Virus record (IMG/VR): IMGVR_UViG_3300047476_000955
Span: 1-30,134 of that record
DNA length: 30,134 bases
Reading direction: 5' to 3' (one strand)
Origin: a virus
Shown: positions 3,868-14,529 of the stretch, piece after piece
Numbering within the stretch: the first letter of the stretch is position 1
Layout: each line of letters starts with the position of its first letter
Translations under genes and position numbers: made by a program
The notes under the pieces: generated by a model
The model's database searches: none
What the model saw: the letters and a program-made list of their open reading frames with translations, nothing else
Told to the model about the DNA's origin: nothing

Positions 3868-6566
3868 GAATATCTTGAATCAAAGCCGTTAATGTTTATC
3901 ACTGTATTCTTTGCCGCCATCGTGCGATTAAGCTTATCAAGCTTGCGCTCCATGCTCTTGCTGTTTAGTGATGCGTTGACTGTGATGCCATCCTTGCGCT
4001 TGTTGGCATAGCTCAAGATCGCTGGGCGAACGTATCGCTGGTCTATTAGCTTCCTGAATGCTGCACTGGATGTATTAAGCGCATCCAACTCAGTGCGATG
4101 GCGTGAGGTCGATGCCTTGTTTACAACGAACTCACCACGCTCTGCTTCAATCAATGTGCCGCCTGCTTCGTGGCTTCGCCCTCCAACTGCGCCACCCTTC
4201 TTGAATTTAGGGATTGGCTGTGATGCAATCAATGCAATCTGCGCAAGTCCTGATGCCAAAGCAAGTGCCTTGAGAATTGGCCCCTTCGCGCTTGCAACAG
4301 CGACCGCCGTGCCAATTGTAGCCTCGAAGATTGCAGATGCTTTTTCCGCAACCGCTTGTCTGCGCTTCTCGGCTGCAACCTTTTGTGCCGTCCTTAATTG
4401 CAATGCTTCAAGCTTGCGCTGCTTCTGCGCTTCGTTTAATGTGCTTTGTTCAATAGCCAACTTCTCGGCTTCTGATGAAGCATTAATCTCATCAATTCGC
4501 TTTTGCGATTGAACGCCTTGCAGTTCGATTATTTGCCCCAATACATTAGCGGTCGCTTGTGCAATGTTAAGCAGATTGTCTAGCTGCTCATCTGCCGTCT
4601 TCTTCTGCTCTTCGCGAATGGCGGCTTGGGTTTCAGCATTTATCAGTTCGATGATTGCTGCATTGCCTTCGGCCTCAGCAATTCGCTTCTCGCCATCTTT
4701 CTCAATCAGCTTGATGCGGCGATCGAGCGATGTGCCCTCGTTAATCTCCGCCGCTTTCAATAAGCTGATTTCATCGTTCAAGCCTTGAACCCTGATGCGC
4801 AATGTTTCTTGCGCCAACTTCTCAGCGGCTTCCTTATCCCTTGCCGCTTTATCTTCTGCGGCCTTTTTGTCAATCTCTGCAATCTGCTTGGTTGCATCTT
4901 CCTTGATTACAGTAATTGCGTTTTGCAATTTCTTTTCTTCATCGCTTCCAGCCTTAAACTTCGAATCAATAAACGCCTGCTCAAGTTCTTGAATCTTTGC
5001 ATTGCTTTCGGCCAAAACTTTTTCGCGCTCATCAAGCTGCGTTGCCAGTGCTTGGAGTTCAAGATCTGCCAACTTCTTGCGTGCCTCATCTCTTATCTCA
5101 AGTTCGCGCTTTGCAGCTTCCTCTGCTGCTTTTGCTCTATCCTCCGCTGCCTTCTTGGCTTCAGCATCGCGCTGCGCCTGCTCTTCACTTGCGAATGCTT
5201 GATTGATGCCAGCGATGGCTGTGTTTTGTTGTATGTTAAGAGCAATGACTCTGTCCTGACTTGCTTTTATATTCGATTCAGTTGTGGCAATTTGTGTCTG
5301 AAGTCTTTTAGTCTCAGCACTTGCAACAACTTCTCCGGTACGTGCCGCAGCTCTTGCATCTGCTTGGCGTGATTCGGCAAGCTCTTTTGATAATCGCTTC
5401 TGCTCTAATACTGATTTTGTTTGGGCACCAATCTCAACCTTGATATTGTCTTCGACAGTTTTGTTAGTTTCTTTTAGCACTTGCTGCCTGTCCGCTTCTG
5501 CCTGCGTAAGCTGACCAGTTGCAATCTTTATCCTTGTAGCTGAATCAAGTTGCAAGTTCTGCAACTCCTGAATGGCCTTGCGCGATCCTTCAGCAGCCTG
5601 CTTGGATAACTCAAGCGAGCGATTAAATGAAGCCTGATTCGCTGCTGCATCCCTTAGCTTATCCACCAACAACGCAACGCCGGTGATGAACAAGCCGATG
5701 CCAGTCGCAGCCAACGCCACTCTGAATGCGCTGATTGCTCCAGTGCTGATGGCAGTGGCAACAGCGACCGCCTTTTGCCCGGCAGCATACAGCGCAAGCT
5801 TAAGCGGACCTTGCCCAGTGATCTGATTCGCCAGGTCATTAACGCCGTTAGCGATGGCAGTCACAGCCGTGGTCTTGGCAATCACCTCCTGCAACTCCTT
5901 GCCTTCAGAACCGAACAAAGCAGCAGCACCTTGCGCCACCTCGAAGCCTGATGCCAGTGCTTGCGTTGCGCCTACCGCTGCATCGAACTTAAAGGTGTCA
6001 GATGCCAGCACGCGCACTCGCTCCCTGGTATCTCCAATCTGGTCCTCAAGCTTTGCCGCTGCGAACAGCAACTTATTGAATTCATCGCTGTTCTCTTTGC
6101 CCTGCTCTTCCAACAATGCGAGCTCTTGCTTGAGTCCGCGTAGCTGGCCAGTCAATGTCTTTTGCTTCTCTTCAGTCTGGCCAAAGGTGCGATTTAATTC
6201 GGCCTGCTCTGCATTCACTTGCGTGATCTGACTCTTCAGCGCAGCCTGCGCCTTGGCGTTATCCTGATAAGCCTTGCTCACCTTGTTGCCGGAAGCAATC
6301 AATGAAAGCTGCTCCTTCTGCAATTCCTTAAGGTTAGCAGTGAGCTTGTCGGATTCTTTGTTTAGCTGGTCGAGTGCCGCCTTTACTTGCGTGCCACCAA
6401 AGGCGGCAGCACCAGCCGCACCCATCTTCTTAAATTCGTCTCCAACTTCTTTGGTTGTCTCCTTGGTGTCAGCAACAATGGCATCGTTAGCCTTGATCAC
6501 TTCATTGACCGTTGCCTTGAGGCTCGAGGCTTCGGCCTCATAAATAATCTCAACCTTTGCTGCCAT
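3852..6566 (-). CDS. Tail tape measure protein
   Basis: 904 residues, the typical long helical ruler protein that sets tail length and is later released into the host envelope. The N-terminal 190 residues are charged coiled coil. A hydrophobic stretch at about residues 262-302 (including ATGIGLFITGVALLVDKL) would span a membrane. A very long Ala/Glu/Lys/Gln coiled coil follows to about residue 710. A second hydrophobic, Ala/Gly-rich helix lies at about residues 739-780, then a Gly-rich hinge (KKGGAVGGRSHEAGG). It lies directly after a pair of overlapping chaperone frames with a frameshift site, the diagnostic siphovirus arrangement. Its ATG lies 17 bases inside the end of the frameshifted chaperone gene. 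Many antisense open frames across it are by-products of its codon bias. Confidence 0.92.
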   Translation of the reverse strand: MAAKVEIIYEAEASSLKATVNEVIKANDAIVADTKETTKEVGDEFKKMGAAGAAAFGGTQVKAALDQLNKESDKLTANLKELQKEQLSLIASGNKVSKAYQDNAKAQAALKSQITQVNAEQAELNRTFGQTEEKQKTLTGQLRGLKQELALLEEQGKENSDEFNKLLFAAAKLEDQIGDTRERVRVLASDTFKFDAAVGATQALASGFEVAQGAAALFGSEGKELQEVIAKTTAVTAIANGVNDLANQITGQGPLKLALYAAGQKAVAVATAISTGAISAFRVALAATGIGLFITGVALLVDKLRDAAANQASFNRSLELSKQAAEGSRKAIQELQNLQLDSATRIKIATGQLTQAEADRQQVLKETNKTVEDNIKVEIGAQTKSVLEQKRLSKELAESRQADARAAARTGEVVASAETKRLQTQIATTESNIKASQDRVIALNIQQNTAIAGINQAFASEEQAQRDAEAKKAAEDRAKAAEEAAKRELEIRDEARKKLADLELQALATQLDEREKVLAESNAKIQELEQAFIDSKFKAGSDEEKKLQNAITVIKEDATKQIAEIDKKAAEDKAARDKEAAEKLAQETLRIRVQGLNDEISLLKAAEINEGTSLDRRIKLIEKDGEKRIAEAEGNAAIIELINAETQAAIREEQKKTADEQLDNLLNIAQATANVLGQIIELQGVQSQKRIDEINASSEAEKLAIEQSTLNEAQKQRKLEALQLRTAQKVAAEKRRQAVAEKASAIFEATIGTAVAVASAKGPILKALALASGLAQIALIASQPIPKFKKGGAVGGRSHEAGGTLIEAERGEFVVNKASTSRHRTELDALNTSSAAFRKLIDQRYVRPAILSYANKRKDGITVNASLNSKSMERKLDKLNRTMAAKNTVININGFDSRYSWQQN

Positions 6567-9454: not shown

Positions 9455-9746
9455 CCTCTTTCGTCTTGATGATCACCAACGGCTCGGTAGTCTTCAGCGT
9501 GGTCTCGTTGGTCTGCTTCGGCTTGCCGTAGGCGCGGTCGAGCAGCAACTCGGCGGCGCGGGTATCGCCTTTAGCTGCGCGTGCGCGTATTGCTTTCAAT
9601 ATCGCTTCAGCCGCCGTAACGCCATCCTTCTCTTCGCCCAATACATCAGCGAGTAATACGTGAAGCTCCGGCAATTTACGAGGTCTGCCGTTCGGGTTTA
9701 GTGTTTCACCCTTCTTCATCTTTCTGCCATCATGCGGGAATGCCAT
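9441..9746 (-). CDS. Terminase small subunit-like protein
   Basis: 101 residues from the ATG ending at 9746 (MAFPHDGRKMKKGETLNPNG). Alternatives are 9719 (MKKGETL, just after the upstream stop) and 9782. The beginning, KKGETLNPNGRPRKLPEL, is the signature of DUF5681-type small phage proteins next to terminase genes. The rest, GVTAAEAILKAIRARAAKGD followed by TRAAELLLDRAYGKPKQ, is a helical region typical of that family. It most likely recognises packaging sites on phage DNA and recruits the large subunit. It lies two genes upstream of terL with only the small membrane protein between them. Confidence 0.7.
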   Translation of the reverse strand: MAFPHDGRKMKKGETLNPNGRPRKLPELHVLLADVLGEEKDGVTAAEAILKAIRARAAKGDTRAAELLLDRAYGKPKQTNETTLKTTEPLVIIKTKEDGNA

Positions 9747-10941
9747 GTGTCTGTATTTCGTCTGTTTTATATGGCTGACCATTGCGCTTAATCGTAAGCG
9801 TTGGGTCGAGTTTAATCATGCGGTCGACTATCACTTGGCAATACTTCGGGTCGAGTTCCATGCCGTAACATTTGCGTTTGAGTTGATGTGCTGCTACCAT
9901 TGTTGTGCCACTTCCTAAAAATGTGTCATGAACATCTCCATCATGGTTTGCAATAGCTTTAGCCATACATTCAATAGGTTTTTGAGTTGAATGCCCTGTT
10001 TCACTTTTAGATGGCTTTGCTATTTCCCAAATTGTAGTTTGTTTTCTATCACTTGCCCAATTTCCCTTGCTGCCTTTTTTAACTGCATACCAACAAGGCT
10101 CATGCTTCCAATGATAATCAGCCCTACTTATAGCAAAATTAGATTTAACCCATATTATTTGACTTCTTATTATAAAATCACAATCCTGTAAACTTTTTTG
10201 AACTACACCGCTAAAAATTCCAGCGTGATAAACATAAGCAACCTTAGAAGGTGTTAAAGACCAAGCTTCTGTCCAATCTGCATTATCATCATTTTTTACT
10301 TTCCCTATGGCTCTGCCAGCGATGGCAGAGCCATCTTCTCTTAGTGCATGATTTCTCCAATCAGCATCATAAACTACCCCATAGGGAGGGTCTGTAATCA
10401 TTAAATAAGGTTCTTTACCATTTAATAATTTAGCTACAGAATCGGCTTCTGTTGAACTGCCACAAAGCAAACGATGCTCACCAATCTCGAAAAGGTCACC
10501 AAGCACGATGTCGGTTTGTATTTCGTCAGGAACTTCGTAATCATCCTCAACGGCTTCAAGTGATTGCTCTGTTTCGAAGCTTGGAATATCCAAGCCCCAC
10601 GCATCCAGCTGCTCGGTATCCCATTCGTTTTGTAGCATAGCCCAATCCCATTCGCCTCCGCTTACGTTATCTTTTATTAAGAACTCGCGTTGCTGCTCTT
10701 CGGTTAAGTTATCTGCAATGATTATAGGTATTTCCTTTAATCCGGCTTCTTTGCATGCCTTTAGTCGCATATTACCACCAAGCACCACCATGTCGCTATT
10801 GACTACGATAGGGCGGATGGAAAGCATCTCAGGCAAGTCTTTGATTGACTGCACCAATTTAGCAAACTTCTCATCCTTAATCAATCGAGGATTGTTCGGG
10901 TTGAGTTTAACTTCTGATATCTTAACTGCTTTTGTTTTCAT
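9730..10941 (-). CDS. ParB-domain DNA methyltransferase (N6-adenine or N4-cytosine)
   Basis: 403 residues. Residues 1-120 form a ParB/sulfiredoxin-like domain (LNPNNPRLIKDEKFAKLVQS, then VVLGGNMRLKACKEAG). The methyltransferase domain shows the catalytic motif DPPYG at about residues 184-188 and the SAM-binding motif DTFLGSGTTMVAA at about 339-351, the beta-class order common for N6-adenine enzymes. The ParB fusion is common in phages and prophages and probably guides or anchors the enzyme on DNA. It likely modifies phage DNA to escape host restriction; no cognate endonuclease is next to it. The catalytic part (bases about 9930-10460) is visibly richer in A+T than both ends, suggesting an exchanged domain. 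Start overlaps the preceding small gene as ATGA. Confidence 0.9.
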   Translation of the reverse strand: MKTKAVKISEVKLNPNNPRLIKDEKFAKLVQSIKDLPEMLSIRPIVVNSDMVVLGGNMRLKACKEAGLKEIPIIIADNLTEEQQREFLIKDNVSGGEWDWAMLQNEWDTEQLDAWGLDIPSFETEQSLEAVEDDYEVPDEIQTDIVLGDLFEIGEHRLLCGSSTEADSVAKLLNGKEPYLMITDPPYGVVYDADWRNHALREDGSAIAGRAIGKVKNDDNADWTEAWSLTPSKVAYVYHAGIFSGVVQKSLQDCDFIIRSQIIWVKSNFAISRADYHWKHEPCWYAVKKGSKGNWASDRKQTTIWEIAKPSKSETGHSTQKPIECMAKAIANHDGDVHDTFLGSGTTMVAAHQLKRKCYGMELDPKYCQVIVDRMIKLDPTLTIKRNGQPYKTDEIQTHGIPA

Positions 10942-12055: not shown

Positions 12056-12292
12056 TTATTTGATTGTGTGATGCATTTCGATGCCGTTTTTTTTCAGAAG
12101 CATAAGCCACTCATAACAGCGTTTAAGGTACACCTTGCGCACGAATGAGCCATCAGGCGCGTGTTTCAAGTAGGCTGCATAACTTCGATGCGTTCGAGTG
12201 GTGCTGTGGTATGTTACGCATCCATCGGTTATCATTGCCTCACTCGGTTCGTAGTTATTCATGCGCTCGATTAGTTGCTCTTCGATTGTCAT
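12056..12292 (-). CDS. Hypothetical protein, 78 residues
   Basis: Coupled to the DnaB-like helicase gene by a TAATG overlap. Begins MTIEEQLIERMNNYEPSEAM; the second half is basic and aromatic (YAAYLKHAPDGSFVRKVYLK, then RCYEWLMLLKK). Two Cys and three His residues occur but not in a clear zinc pattern. No family recognised. Tight coupling to the helicase suggests a replication accessory role, but nothing in the sequence proves it. Confidence 0.6.
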   Translation of the reverse strand: MTIEEQLIERMNNYEPSEAMITDGCVTYHSTTRTHRSYAAYLKHAPDGSFVRKVYLKRCYEWLMLLKKNGIEMHHTIK

Positions 12293-13701
12293 TAGAACGG
12301 ATTAAAATCAAAAGTTTCATTCGGCTGCATTGCCTTTGGGCTACCGTTTAAGATTGGCTCGGCTTCAGGCATAGGCAAATAAGAGCTGCCACCACTCGAG
12401 CCGCTATCGTGAAAGCTCGTTATGGTGCTATTATGCTTAAAGAGTACCTCACCAGTTGAGCCTTGCCGGTGCTTCTCAAATAAATAAAACACATCGGAGC
12501 TATAAGGGTTACCAGCTTCATCGTTCAATCCGTAGTATTCAGGGCGGTAAACAAACATAACCGTATCGGCATCCTGTTCGATGCTTCCCGATTCGCGAAG
12601 GTCTGAGAGTATCGGTCGCTTATCGGCGCGTTGCTCGACCTGCCTGCTTAACTGGGCAAGTGCAATAATTGGTATATTAAGTTCCTTTTGCGCGGCTTTC
12701 AACGTGCGGCTTATCTCGGCAACCTCAGCCTCGCGATTACCGCCTCTGAAGCCCTCGATTGTCATCAACTGAAGATAGTCAATAATTGCCCATTTGCAAT
12801 TGTTCTTACGCGCTTCTCGGCGCATTATGCGTATTGCCTCATGCACACCGCATCGCGGCTTATCGTAAATCGTGATGGGTAGCTTCTCAACTAACCCGAT
12901 TGTGGTTTCAAATGCGTGTAGCTCGGGCTGCGATAGGTTGCCATCGCGTAGGCGTGCGCTGTTTATTGAATCGTTTGCATGTTGAAGTATGAGCCGCTGG
13001 CAGAGCTGGCTTTGATTCATCTCGAGGTTGAAGTATATGCCCGGCTCATTGAACTGGCAGGCGTGGTATAATGCGAGGGCGGTCTTACCCATCGATGGGC
13101 GGCCTGCAATGATTATAAGCTCGGGATGAAATCCGCCAGTGAATCGGTTAAGTGCTGCGATGCCGGTATTGAGCCCGCTTGTTTTACCGCTTTGATGTAA
13201 CGCAGCACGGCGGTAGTATGCTTGCCTCTCTTCGTGAGTTAACTGTGGTGTGGTTATGATGTTATCAGTAGGGCTGCCATTCTCGATCAGGGTGTTAAGC
13301 CGTTTAATGATGTTAACGGCTGTTTCGCTTCCGCTCGATTCTTTGCCGAGCCCAAGTGCCTGCTCGGTTAGTATGGTGTTTATATTGCGTTTGATGTGTT
13401 CATCTTTGAGGATTGCGATGTATTGGTTAATCGGTTCGGAGTAGCTTAACTCATTGCCCCACTGAGTAACCGATGCAATCTGTTGCGGTGTTAGTGCTTT
13501 GTCCTTTGTCGCGTATTGCCCGAAAGTAACGAATGTAGGCTGCTTGCCGTCCTTCATAATCGCATTAATGAGCTTAAATGTTTTAAGCGCGGTATCGTCT
13601 GCGAAGTAATCTTCGATAAGCTGCGGCGCGATTTCTCGGTAGTTATCATCGCCATTAAGGCAAAGAAACATTAGGGCTTGTTCTATCTTTGGTATGTTCA
13701 T
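12292..13701 (-). CDS. dnaB: Replicative DNA helicase, DnaB family
   Basis: 469 residues. Hexameric 5'-3' helicase that unwinds DNA at the phage replication fork. The N-terminal domain (residues 1-120) is the usual helical DnaB-N fold (FLCLNGDDNYREIAPQLIED). The RecA-like motor shows Walker A GRPSMGKT (residues 200-207), Walker B in WAIIDYLQLM (about 304-313), and the DnaB-specific AQLSRQVEQRADKRPILSDL followed by RESGSIEQDADTV (about 347-379), including the conserved DLRESG..EQDAD. Length is normal for the family. It lies behind a replication-organiser-like gene and is coupled by TAATG to the following small gene. A TAAATTTG box just upstream could start a near-leaderless message. Confidence 0.95.
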   Translation of the reverse strand: MNIPKIEQALMFLCLNGDDNYREIAPQLIEDYFADDTALKTFKLINAIMKDGKQPTFVTFGQYATKDKALTPQQIASVTQWGNELSYSEPINQYIAILKDEHIKRNINTILTEQALGLGKESSGSETAVNIIKRLNTLIENGSPTDNIITTPQLTHEERQAYYRRAALHQSGKTSGLNTGIAALNRFTGGFHPELIIIAGRPSMGKTALALYHACQFNEPGIYFNLEMNQSQLCQRLILQHANDSINSARLRDGNLSQPELHAFETTIGLVEKLPITIYDKPRCGVHEAIRIMRREARKNNCKWAIIDYLQLMTIEGFRGGNREAEVAEISRTLKAAQKELNIPIIALAQLSRQVEQRADKRPILSDLRESGSIEQDADTVMFVYRPEYYGLNDEAGNPYSSDVFYLFEKHRQGSTGEVLFKHNSTITSFHDSGSSGGSSYLPMPEAEPILNGSPKAMQPNETFDFNPF

Positions 13702-13735: not shown

Positions 13736-14401
13736 TTATTCCATTTTAACGCCCATCGAGGCGCGTGTCTTTGTTGGTGGTGGTTGTTTAGTGTTGTTGC
13801 GTTTAATTTCAAATAAACCGCTCCATCCGTTGGCGATTGCTTCCTCGAGCCCTTCAATTACTTCCTCTTTGGTTTTATAAATTTTACGCATTTTTTTAAT
13901 TAGCAATTCAATCGAGTTATCAGTTGGGTATTTCTTACGTGCAATACGTTCGGATAAAAATTGGATAAATAAGCTATTTATTTTTTCATCAGCAAAATGC
14001 TCCTTTTTTATTTCATCAATATTCTTATAAATTTTATTTGCATTTATACTATCACTATCACTTACACTATCACTTACACTATCACTATCAGGTTTTTTGG
14101 GTTTTGAAATAACCCGCTGGGTTTTTTGGGTTTCATTTTTACCTAATTGGTTTTTAGTTGGTCTGCCTCCTTTAGCCCCGTTTTCACGCGACCTTTCAGC
14201 TCGTTTCTCATACTTTACTCCATCTCTATCCAAGCTCGATTTAATGAATCCAAAGGCAATAAATAAAGGGTTGTTTATTTCGGGTGTCTTTCCGCTGGTT
14301 TGATATTCAAATATCATTCGCATTAATTTACCGAGCTGTTCATCGCTTAGGTGCTGAAGAGTGTCGTAGGTGTCGCTGTATAGTATAAATGATTTTCTCA
14401 T
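13736..14401 (-). CDS. Phage replication organiser-like protein (DUF6291-like)
   Basis: 221 residues. The N-terminal domain (residues 1-75) has the pattern FILYSDTYDTLQHLSDEQLG, then KLMRMIFEYQTSGKTPEINN, and FIKSSLDRDGVKYEKRAERS followed by RENGAKGGRPTKN. This is typical of DUF6291-type proteins, which occur with helicase genes in phages. A Ser/Asp/Val repeat linker (about residues 104-117, coded by a TATCAC-type tandem repeat) joins it to a helical C-terminal domain. It probably helps load the DnaB helicase encoded immediately downstream; that role is an inference from context. The ATG directly touches the U-tract of an upstream terminator-like RNA, implying control by attenuation. Confidence 0.72.
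   Translation of the reverse strand: MRKSFILYSDTYDTLQHLSDEQLGKLMRMIFEYQTSGKTPEINNPLFIAFGFIKSSLDRDGVKYEKRAERSRENGAKGGRPTKNQLGKNETQKTQRVISKPKKPDSDSVSDSVSDSDSINANKIYKNIDEIKKEHFADEKINSLFIQFLSERIARKKYPTDNSIELLIKKMRKIYKTKEEVIEGLEEAIANGWSGLFEIKRNNTKQPPPTKTRASMGVKME
14048..14090 (-). repeat. Short tandem repeat encoding a Ser-Asp linker
   Basis: On the plus strand the units actatc, actatc, acttac recur about seven times; on the coding strand they give DSDSVSDSVSDSDS. The repeats are in multiples of three and keep the frame. The region is a flexible acidic linker in the replication-organiser-like protein and could vary in length between relatives. Confidence 0.7.
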
Positions 14402-14476
14402 AAAAAAAAACGCCCTTTGATGGCTGCGGTCGAAGCGGCTCGGTTGTTACACCTTGCCTCGCAGCCCCCAAAGGGC
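14402..14476 (-). terminator. Rho-independent terminator with nine-U tract abutting a start codon
   Basis: An 8 bp outer stem plus a 7 bp inner stem separated by a short bulge, followed by G and nine U; the next base begins the ATG of the downstream gene. As a terminator it would stop transcription from the 14522 promoter and from upstream genes before replication functions unless it is opened. Confidence 0.7.
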
Positions 14477-14520
14477 TTCAAGATTTTTGAAACATCATTC
14501 AGGCTTCGACCTCTGAACGC
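14402..14520 (-). ncRNA. Structured leader or small RNA ending in a terminator, upstream of the replication gene
   Basis: Between a TATATTTG box and the ATG of the replication gene lies about 117 bases with dense pairing. Hairpin 1: CGTTCAG / CTGAATG (bases 14519-14513 with 14502-14496) with a ten-base loop. Hairpin 2: GCCCTTTG / CAAAGGGC (14476-14469 with 14419-14412) continued by GGCTGCG / CGCAGCC (14466-14460 with 14428-14422), followed at once by nine U. The loop of hairpin 1 (GTCGAAGC) is perfectly complementary to GCTTCGAC in the large loop of hairpin 2 (8 bases), so a kissing loop or a rearrangement is possible. It could be a stable phage small RNA or an attenuator. I do not recognise a known RNA family. 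Confidence 0.65.
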
Positions 14521-14521
14521 T

Positions 14522-14529
14522 CAAATATA
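14522..14529 (-). promoter_or_regulatory. Promoter element (TATATTTG) for the structured RNA
   Basis: TATATTTG matches the Bacteroidota -7 box exactly, and the predicted start a few bases later falls right at hairpin 1 of the RNA. No clear -33 TTG is seen at 17-21 bases, which weakens it. Confidence 0.5.

Follow-up and report, generated by a model that had tools for sequence, protein, structure and literature searches.

The systems closest in logic to the element described here appear to be the CI RNA of phage P4 with seqA and seqC and the IsrK RNA of the Salmonella prophage Gifsy-1, and membership of either is not claimed. In P4 immunity, the CI RNA pairs with seqA and seqC (PMC4825925). The present element and its homologues (family A) resemble P4 in having complementary segments in one leader before replication genes, and RNA pairing may here, too, be tied to premature termination; in some other families a third copy of the segment lies downstream. 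The P4 RNA is, however, processed from a longer transcript and belongs to a temperate satellite, whereas here both partners reside within one RNA of ~119 nt that ends in an intrinsic terminator, and the family-A records show no integrase. With regard to antisense sites of the P4 type, the upstream site is always present, while the downstream site was found in family C and in the loci L227, L156 and L199, and not in family A genomes.

IsrK shares the succession of promoter, short RNA, intrinsic terminator and readthrough mRNA, and its short RNA acts on the readthrough mRNA and activates translation (PMC4825925). This activation of translation, as well as the other genes and other hosts involved, sets IsrK apart, and the isrK model (RF01394) scored 10.8 bits against a gathering threshold of 50. 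The replication-gene leaders of the plasmids pT181 and pIP501 are attenuated by antisense RNA (PMC5703833). These leaders resemble the present one in that an attenuator precedes a replication initiator and in the control by RNA-RNA pairing proposed here; the regulator there is a separate antisense RNA, whereas here the partner lies on the same strand within the leader. The kissing loop pairs of RNAI and RNAII of ColE1 vary in concert between replicons, as the loop pairs do here, but they belong to two separate RNAs from opposite strands instead of one. The C4 phage RNA is complementary to sites in its own transcript, including the ribosome-binding region, and this complementarity is likewise shared. 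C4 antisense RNA of P1/P4-type phages (Rfam RF01695) is named in PMC2864571; its Rfam model did not match the element, and its structure and gene context are unlike those found here.

Within the whole window, Rfam gave no match at gathering or E-value thresholds, the best sub-threshold score in the region being 14.5 bits against 39. No description of the element was found in the open-access papers searched. The element seems to recur across many Bacteroidota phages and is apparently undescribed.

A pseudoknotted RNA before a replication gene

The window, that is, the whole stretch of DNA analysed, is a virus record of 30,134 bases. The features that matter for the argument are the following.

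14522..14529, minus strand: promoter -7 element TATATTTG, matching the Bacteroidota type TAnnTTTG
14402..14521, minus strand: entire RNA element, ~119 nt (covariance model R1 match 14403-14521, 133.7 bits)
14496..14519, minus strand: hairpin 1 (P1), 7-bp stem 14519-14513/14502-14496 with 10-nt loop 14512-14503
14503..14510, minus strand: pseudoknot strand 1 in the P1 loop, allele GTCGAAGC
14477..14495, minus strand: A-rich single-stranded linker, AAA..ACATT/ATCTT type from the alignment
14412..14476, minus strand: terminator hairpin (P2, P3, P4), from covariation
14476-14469/14419-14412, minus strand: P2, outer terminator stem GCCCTTTG/CAAAGGGC
14466-14460/14428-14422, minus strand: P3, inner terminator stem GGCTGCG/CGCAGCC
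from 14458, minus strand: P4, inner hairpin within the terminator
14429..14436, minus strand: pseudoknot strand 2 in the bulge between P4 and P3, GCTTCGAC
14402..14410, minus strand: U-tract, nine U, of the intrinsic terminator, adjoining the ATG
14401-14399, minus strand: ATG of the DUF6291/O-like gene, abutting U9
13736..14401, minus strand: putatively controlled gene, DUF6291/replication-initiation O-like protein (PF19808, phrog_16304, phrog_678, phrog_6451)
12292..13701, minus strand: next gene, DnaB-like replicative helicase (PF03796, 1.8e-78)

The preliminary description had proposed a promoter-like sequence followed by ~117 bases with two hairpins, the second of them a two-part GC-rich terminator whose nine U touch the ATG of the replication gene, and this layout is confirmed on the minus strand with a length of ~119 nt. 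The complementarity that it had seen between the loops of the two hairpins also proved exact, since GTCGAAGC (14510-14503) and GCTTCGAC (14436-14429) are reverse complements over 8 bp, or 9 if one stem pair opens. P2/P3 form a G+C-rich hairpin directly before U9, as in intrinsic terminators, and this arrangement is kept in homologues. The minus-strand element folds at -46 kcal/mol (z -3.31), a value equalled by 1 of 200 shuffles. As both complementary segments are located outside the terminator stems, pairing between them does not abolish the terminator by base exclusivity; it constitutes a pseudoknot and not a classical antiterminator hairpin. The suggestion of a strict antiterminator switch with mutually exclusive pairing was therefore rejected, as pseudoknot and terminator stems share no bases.

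Covariation of the loop contact in family A

Homologues were collected from IMG/VR with the replication protein, a promoter-hairpin pattern and two other downstream genes as queries, and these searches returned many phages with the element ahead of replication genes. The promoter (TATATTTG or a variant at the equivalent place), the terminator and the gene start are kept together in family A, with a few bases at most between U-tract and ATG. Genes of three or more types follow the RNA, which persists where the downstream gene has been replaced; it is thus not confined to phages bearing the DUF6291/O-like replication gene. Because the ATG abuts the terminator, expression of this gene from the element's own or an upstream promoter needs readthrough. 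A pattern scan of genome contigs matched eleven stretches, none of which was scored by the covariance model, and a scan of 395 Bacteroidota genomes, run without a positive control, gave no match.

The loop-loop covariation for which a search in related phages had been proposed was found in 28 and then in 49 distinct homologues. In the set of 28, every pseudoknot cell is paired (100%), and 5 of the 8 pairs have changed on both sides. After realignment of the 49 distinct sequences, the 8-bp contact is Watson-Crick in 392/392 cells without any G-U, and 6 of its 8 pairs show two-sided changes among 14 alleles. The covariance model was built without the pseudoknot and the realignment was fitted to the nested stems only, so these counts are not favoured by the fit. 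None of 500 shuffles of the larger set reached any of five measures, and slid controls lost the signal. The nested stems covary as well (two-sided changes in 4/7 pairs of P1, with 98.3% of cells paired, in 8/15 of P2/P3 and in 4/5 of P4, all in the set of 49). The kissing loop is thereby strongly supported, its pairing being kept by compensatory change, and the more general proposal of a structured RNA or attenuator before the replication gene is borne out by this covariation, by the conserved adjacency of promoter, terminator and ATG, and by the recurrence in other families described below.

Each family-A record carries one sense copy according to the covariance model, with the exception of record G002, which carries two; antisense matches are weak and accounted for by the palindromic terminator. 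The 52-kb contig of G002 (L248-L250) repeats its first ~17 kb, as a genome of ~34.5 kb assembled 1.5 times around. The repeated parts stem from two co-assembled strains with the alleles GTCGAAGC and GTGGAATC, and they lend themselves to a natural comparison of strains. Their flanks near the element are mostly 85-99% identical per 100 columns, and identity is 28-81% across RNA and initiator (from 3488, where the RNA starts, to ~4260). The pattern is suggestive of an exchange of RNA and initiator as a cassette; mosaicism is not unique to it, as the strains also diverge at ~4560-4815, in a tail gene and in a small ORF.

Recurrence in other families and third copies at gene starts

A search for DUF6291 relatives that started from the protein of phi19:3, a cultured Cellulophaga phage, yielded 64 distinct upstream regions. 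In 19 of the 64, a terminator loop has a partner of at least 8 nt in an upstream segment, against a shuffle expectation of 0.75. Control gene starts at the same loci gave 3 such combinations of terminator and pseudoknot partner in 213; on inspection these three look like further real elements, so that the control rate is if anything too high. Three or more additional families have the same layout with unrelated sequences, and cultured phages of Flavobacterium, Cellulophaga and Tenacibaculum are among the carriers. Directed scans gave, among others, the family B alleles GCTCTCAC, CCTTCGAC, CATCCGAC and GGCTGGAC (part of this family was misaligned by MAFFT, and its contact was therefore taken from exact complementarity), a contact of 6 or 7 bp in family C, the family D alleles GTGGAACG, GTGAGACG and GTGAGAAG, and single cases beyond families B-D. 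Directly upstream of the DUF6291-like genes of Riemerella, Vibrio, Aeromonas, Pseudoalteromonas, Flavobacterium elemo and several gut phages, the element is absent.

Two traits are common to these otherwise unrelated families. One is the A-rich linker before the 5' arm of the terminator, with ACATT/ATTATT (AAA..ATTATT outside family A). The other is the spacing between pseudoknot strand 2 and the U-tract, with 16-20 nt in family A, 17-21 nt in most other cases and 18 nt in phi19:3; L220 and L189 are outliers in spacing and may not be real members. A distance of 16-21 nt is about that at which a segment just clears RNA polymerase as the U-tract is made, judging from the dimensions of the polymerase. 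The near-constant spacing across unrelated families thus fits an action at the termination decision.

Elements also precede genes other than the replication initiator. In the Tenacibaculum phage Gundel_1 (L261), whose allele is GCTCTCAC, a family B element (800-925) lies directly upstream of a gene annotated as antirepressor, and L199 carries two elements with different alleles (1353 and 4080) flanking the replication gene and the helicase.

In eight elements (five family C alleles, L227, L156 and L199 at 4080) an allele-matched third copy of the 5' segment stands just before an ATG. The family C copies of the hairpin-1 loop read GTTGCAG (L152), GTCGCAG (L187), AGGCAG (L164), AAGCAG (L172) and GTGCAG (the L168 group). 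The gene behind the copy is DUF6291 in six of the eight cases, namely the five family C alleles and L227; in L156 the copy marks the start of a gene that lies ~390 nt before DUF6291, and the copy matching the second L199 element stands at the start of a 95-aa gene behind the helicase. In L168, L171, L174 and L177 the RNA is followed by four other genes, with the target ~1.9 kb downstream of the RNA. The eight matches total 55 bases against a permuted mean of 30.7, a total reached in 0 of 5000 permutations; since the cases were chosen for matching, this measures allele specificity and not the frequency of third copies. No third copy was seen for elements of families A and B, and in the window and in those family-A records that were retrieved whole the loop has scattered short matches, none at a replication gene start.

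Proposed action and its rivals

We consider it probable that the element is a pseudoknotted transcription attenuator and, at the same time, a small RNA that meters the phage replication operon in a type-specific manner; an action in trans is suggested by pairing segments that are type-specific and change together. Transcription would start at the TATATTTG promoter and hairpin 1 would fold first, whereupon its loop would pair with the segment of the terminator loop as this leaves the RNA polymerase, just before the U-tract. The polymerase would then either stop, leaving a small RNA of ~115 nt, or in some fraction of cases read through into the initiator and DnaB genes. The pseudoknot may influence this choice: it could delay zipping of the terminator, or it could stabilise the folded, terminated RNA, which the conserved A-rich linker would suit. 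The terminated RNA may also act in trans, its targets being same-type transcripts that are still being made and, in phages with a third copy, the ribosome-binding region of a gene of the replication module; as families A and B show no third copy, trans pairing there would be of RNA on RNA only. The net effect would be a negative feedback, amounting to copy control and possibly to exclusion of same-type phages. Among the uses offered in the preliminary description, a small RNA or copy control of replication is, judging from sequence, the most likely.

More tentatively, the kissing loop might serve as a type code for self-recognition, by which phages of the same type, be they copies or superinfecting relatives, would silence one another's replication genes and leave other types free to replicate, much as in plasmid incompatibility; such a system would be widespread and would extend to virulent phages. 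The alleles bear on the preferred, type-specific reading in more than one way. On a family-A tree built from the other columns, each of the four variable positions of the pseudoknot needs 10-14 parsimony steps, and these positions are among the fastest-changing in the molecule (unpaired columns average 5.0 steps per site). Between L055 and L003, 4 pseudoknot sites differ but only 1 of 101 backbone sites does. The 14 alleles require 23 changes on the backbone tree, with a minimum of 13, and one allele is common to the distant backbones of the window, L100, L117 and L120. Positions 2 and 6 of the 8-mer are invariant and positions 1 and 8 seldom vary, which makes for a small sequence space in which some recurrence is expected. 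Some alleles are one base apart, and non-cognate pairing reaches -8.5 kcal/mol against -9.2 to -12.6 for cognate pairs, so orthogonality is incomplete. Compensatory drift without selection for specificity could also be the source of the alleles.

Such drift is what a purely cis-acting attenuator would imply, in which the pseudoknot sets how well the terminator works, possibly helped by a factor from host or phage. The length of the linker and the geometry of the pseudoknot are well suited to pairing within one molecule, family A genomes have no third copy and alleles recur within their small space. We nevertheless regard this reading as rather unlikely, because the stems, which have an equal pairing duty, change less (2.4 steps per site on the same tree, against the 10-14 given above), G-U intermediates are absent and allele-matched third copies stand at gene starts in other families.

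The metering RNA that we prefer has to be weighed also against a small RNA acting in trans on host transcripts, with the replication gene read from elsewhere. Promoter, RNA and terminator would be self-contained enough for such a role, but in many families the element is located next to replication genes, the U-tract directly adjoins the ATG and phages on the same hosts carry different alleles. BLAST with a family D element matched 46 Flavobacterium phage records, and seven were read: GTGAGACG occurs in filifjonk9-1, hemulen6-1 and tooticki6-1, GTGGAACG in mumin9-1, snusmum9-1 and snusmum6-1, and GTGAGAAG in morran9-1. The stretches read in these cultured phage records contain no annotation of an RNA feature. 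These muminphages are reported to plate on both LMO6 and LMO9, and lysogeny genes were not found in them (PMC7077304). Three alleles thus occur among virulent Flavobacterium phages sharing two hosts, which speaks against a sequence dictated by the host; the idea of a host target was rejected on this ground and is in our judgement improbable. Immunity of a prophage was set aside for family A, as searches of the window and of family-A records, none of them marked complete, turned up no integrase.

An RNA of the replication origin is another reading, to which we give very little weight: the RNA would serve as primer, or its transcription would activate an origin located within the initiator gene, and the kissing pair would control primer formation as in ColE1. 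The element does sit directly before the O-like gene, which contains a 12-bp tandem repeat, ACTATC / CACTATCACTTA (14053-14086, within 14048-14090), whose units are candidate origin iterons as in lambda O; a strong intrinsic terminator at the end of the RNA and the presence of elements ahead of other genes speak against it. A structured leader with a terminator would also be expected of a metabolite riboswitch, but the riboswitch-like switch considered at the outset did not hold up: no conserved unpaired core or pocket is kept between families and it is the tertiary contact that varies most, which renders a riboswitch highly improbable. That a good terminator merely happens to contain complementary segments is refuted by the covariation reported above (392/392 Watson-Crick cells, 14 alleles).

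If the proposed metering of replication is correct, the element would represent a new and widespread class of phage regulatory RNA gating DNA replication, whose pairing code evolves fast. The idea that phages, virulent ones included, use RNA pairing in the manner of plasmids to count themselves or to keep relatives out becomes testable, and such a test is practicable, as the published cultured phages on Flavobacterium LMO6/LMO9 carry three alleles. A defined RNA-RNA code together with an attenuator would also be added to the tool set for Bacteroidota.

Genes near the element in the window encode exonuclease-like proteins, methyltransferases and a Holliday-junction-resolvase-like protein. The product of the gene at 9730-10941 (minus strand) is a fusion in which an N6/N4 DNA methylase follows a ParB-like N-terminal domain. 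Within the gene for the cytosine methyltransferase at 15194-16387 (minus strand), an ORF of 331 aa (15262-16257, minus strand) is open in another frame and matches the methyltransferase family phrog_1008 (1.2e-28), which is its host gene's own family. With an equivalent out-of-frame overlap present in L032 (2769-3809), it looks like a long, conserved out-of-frame overlapping gene.
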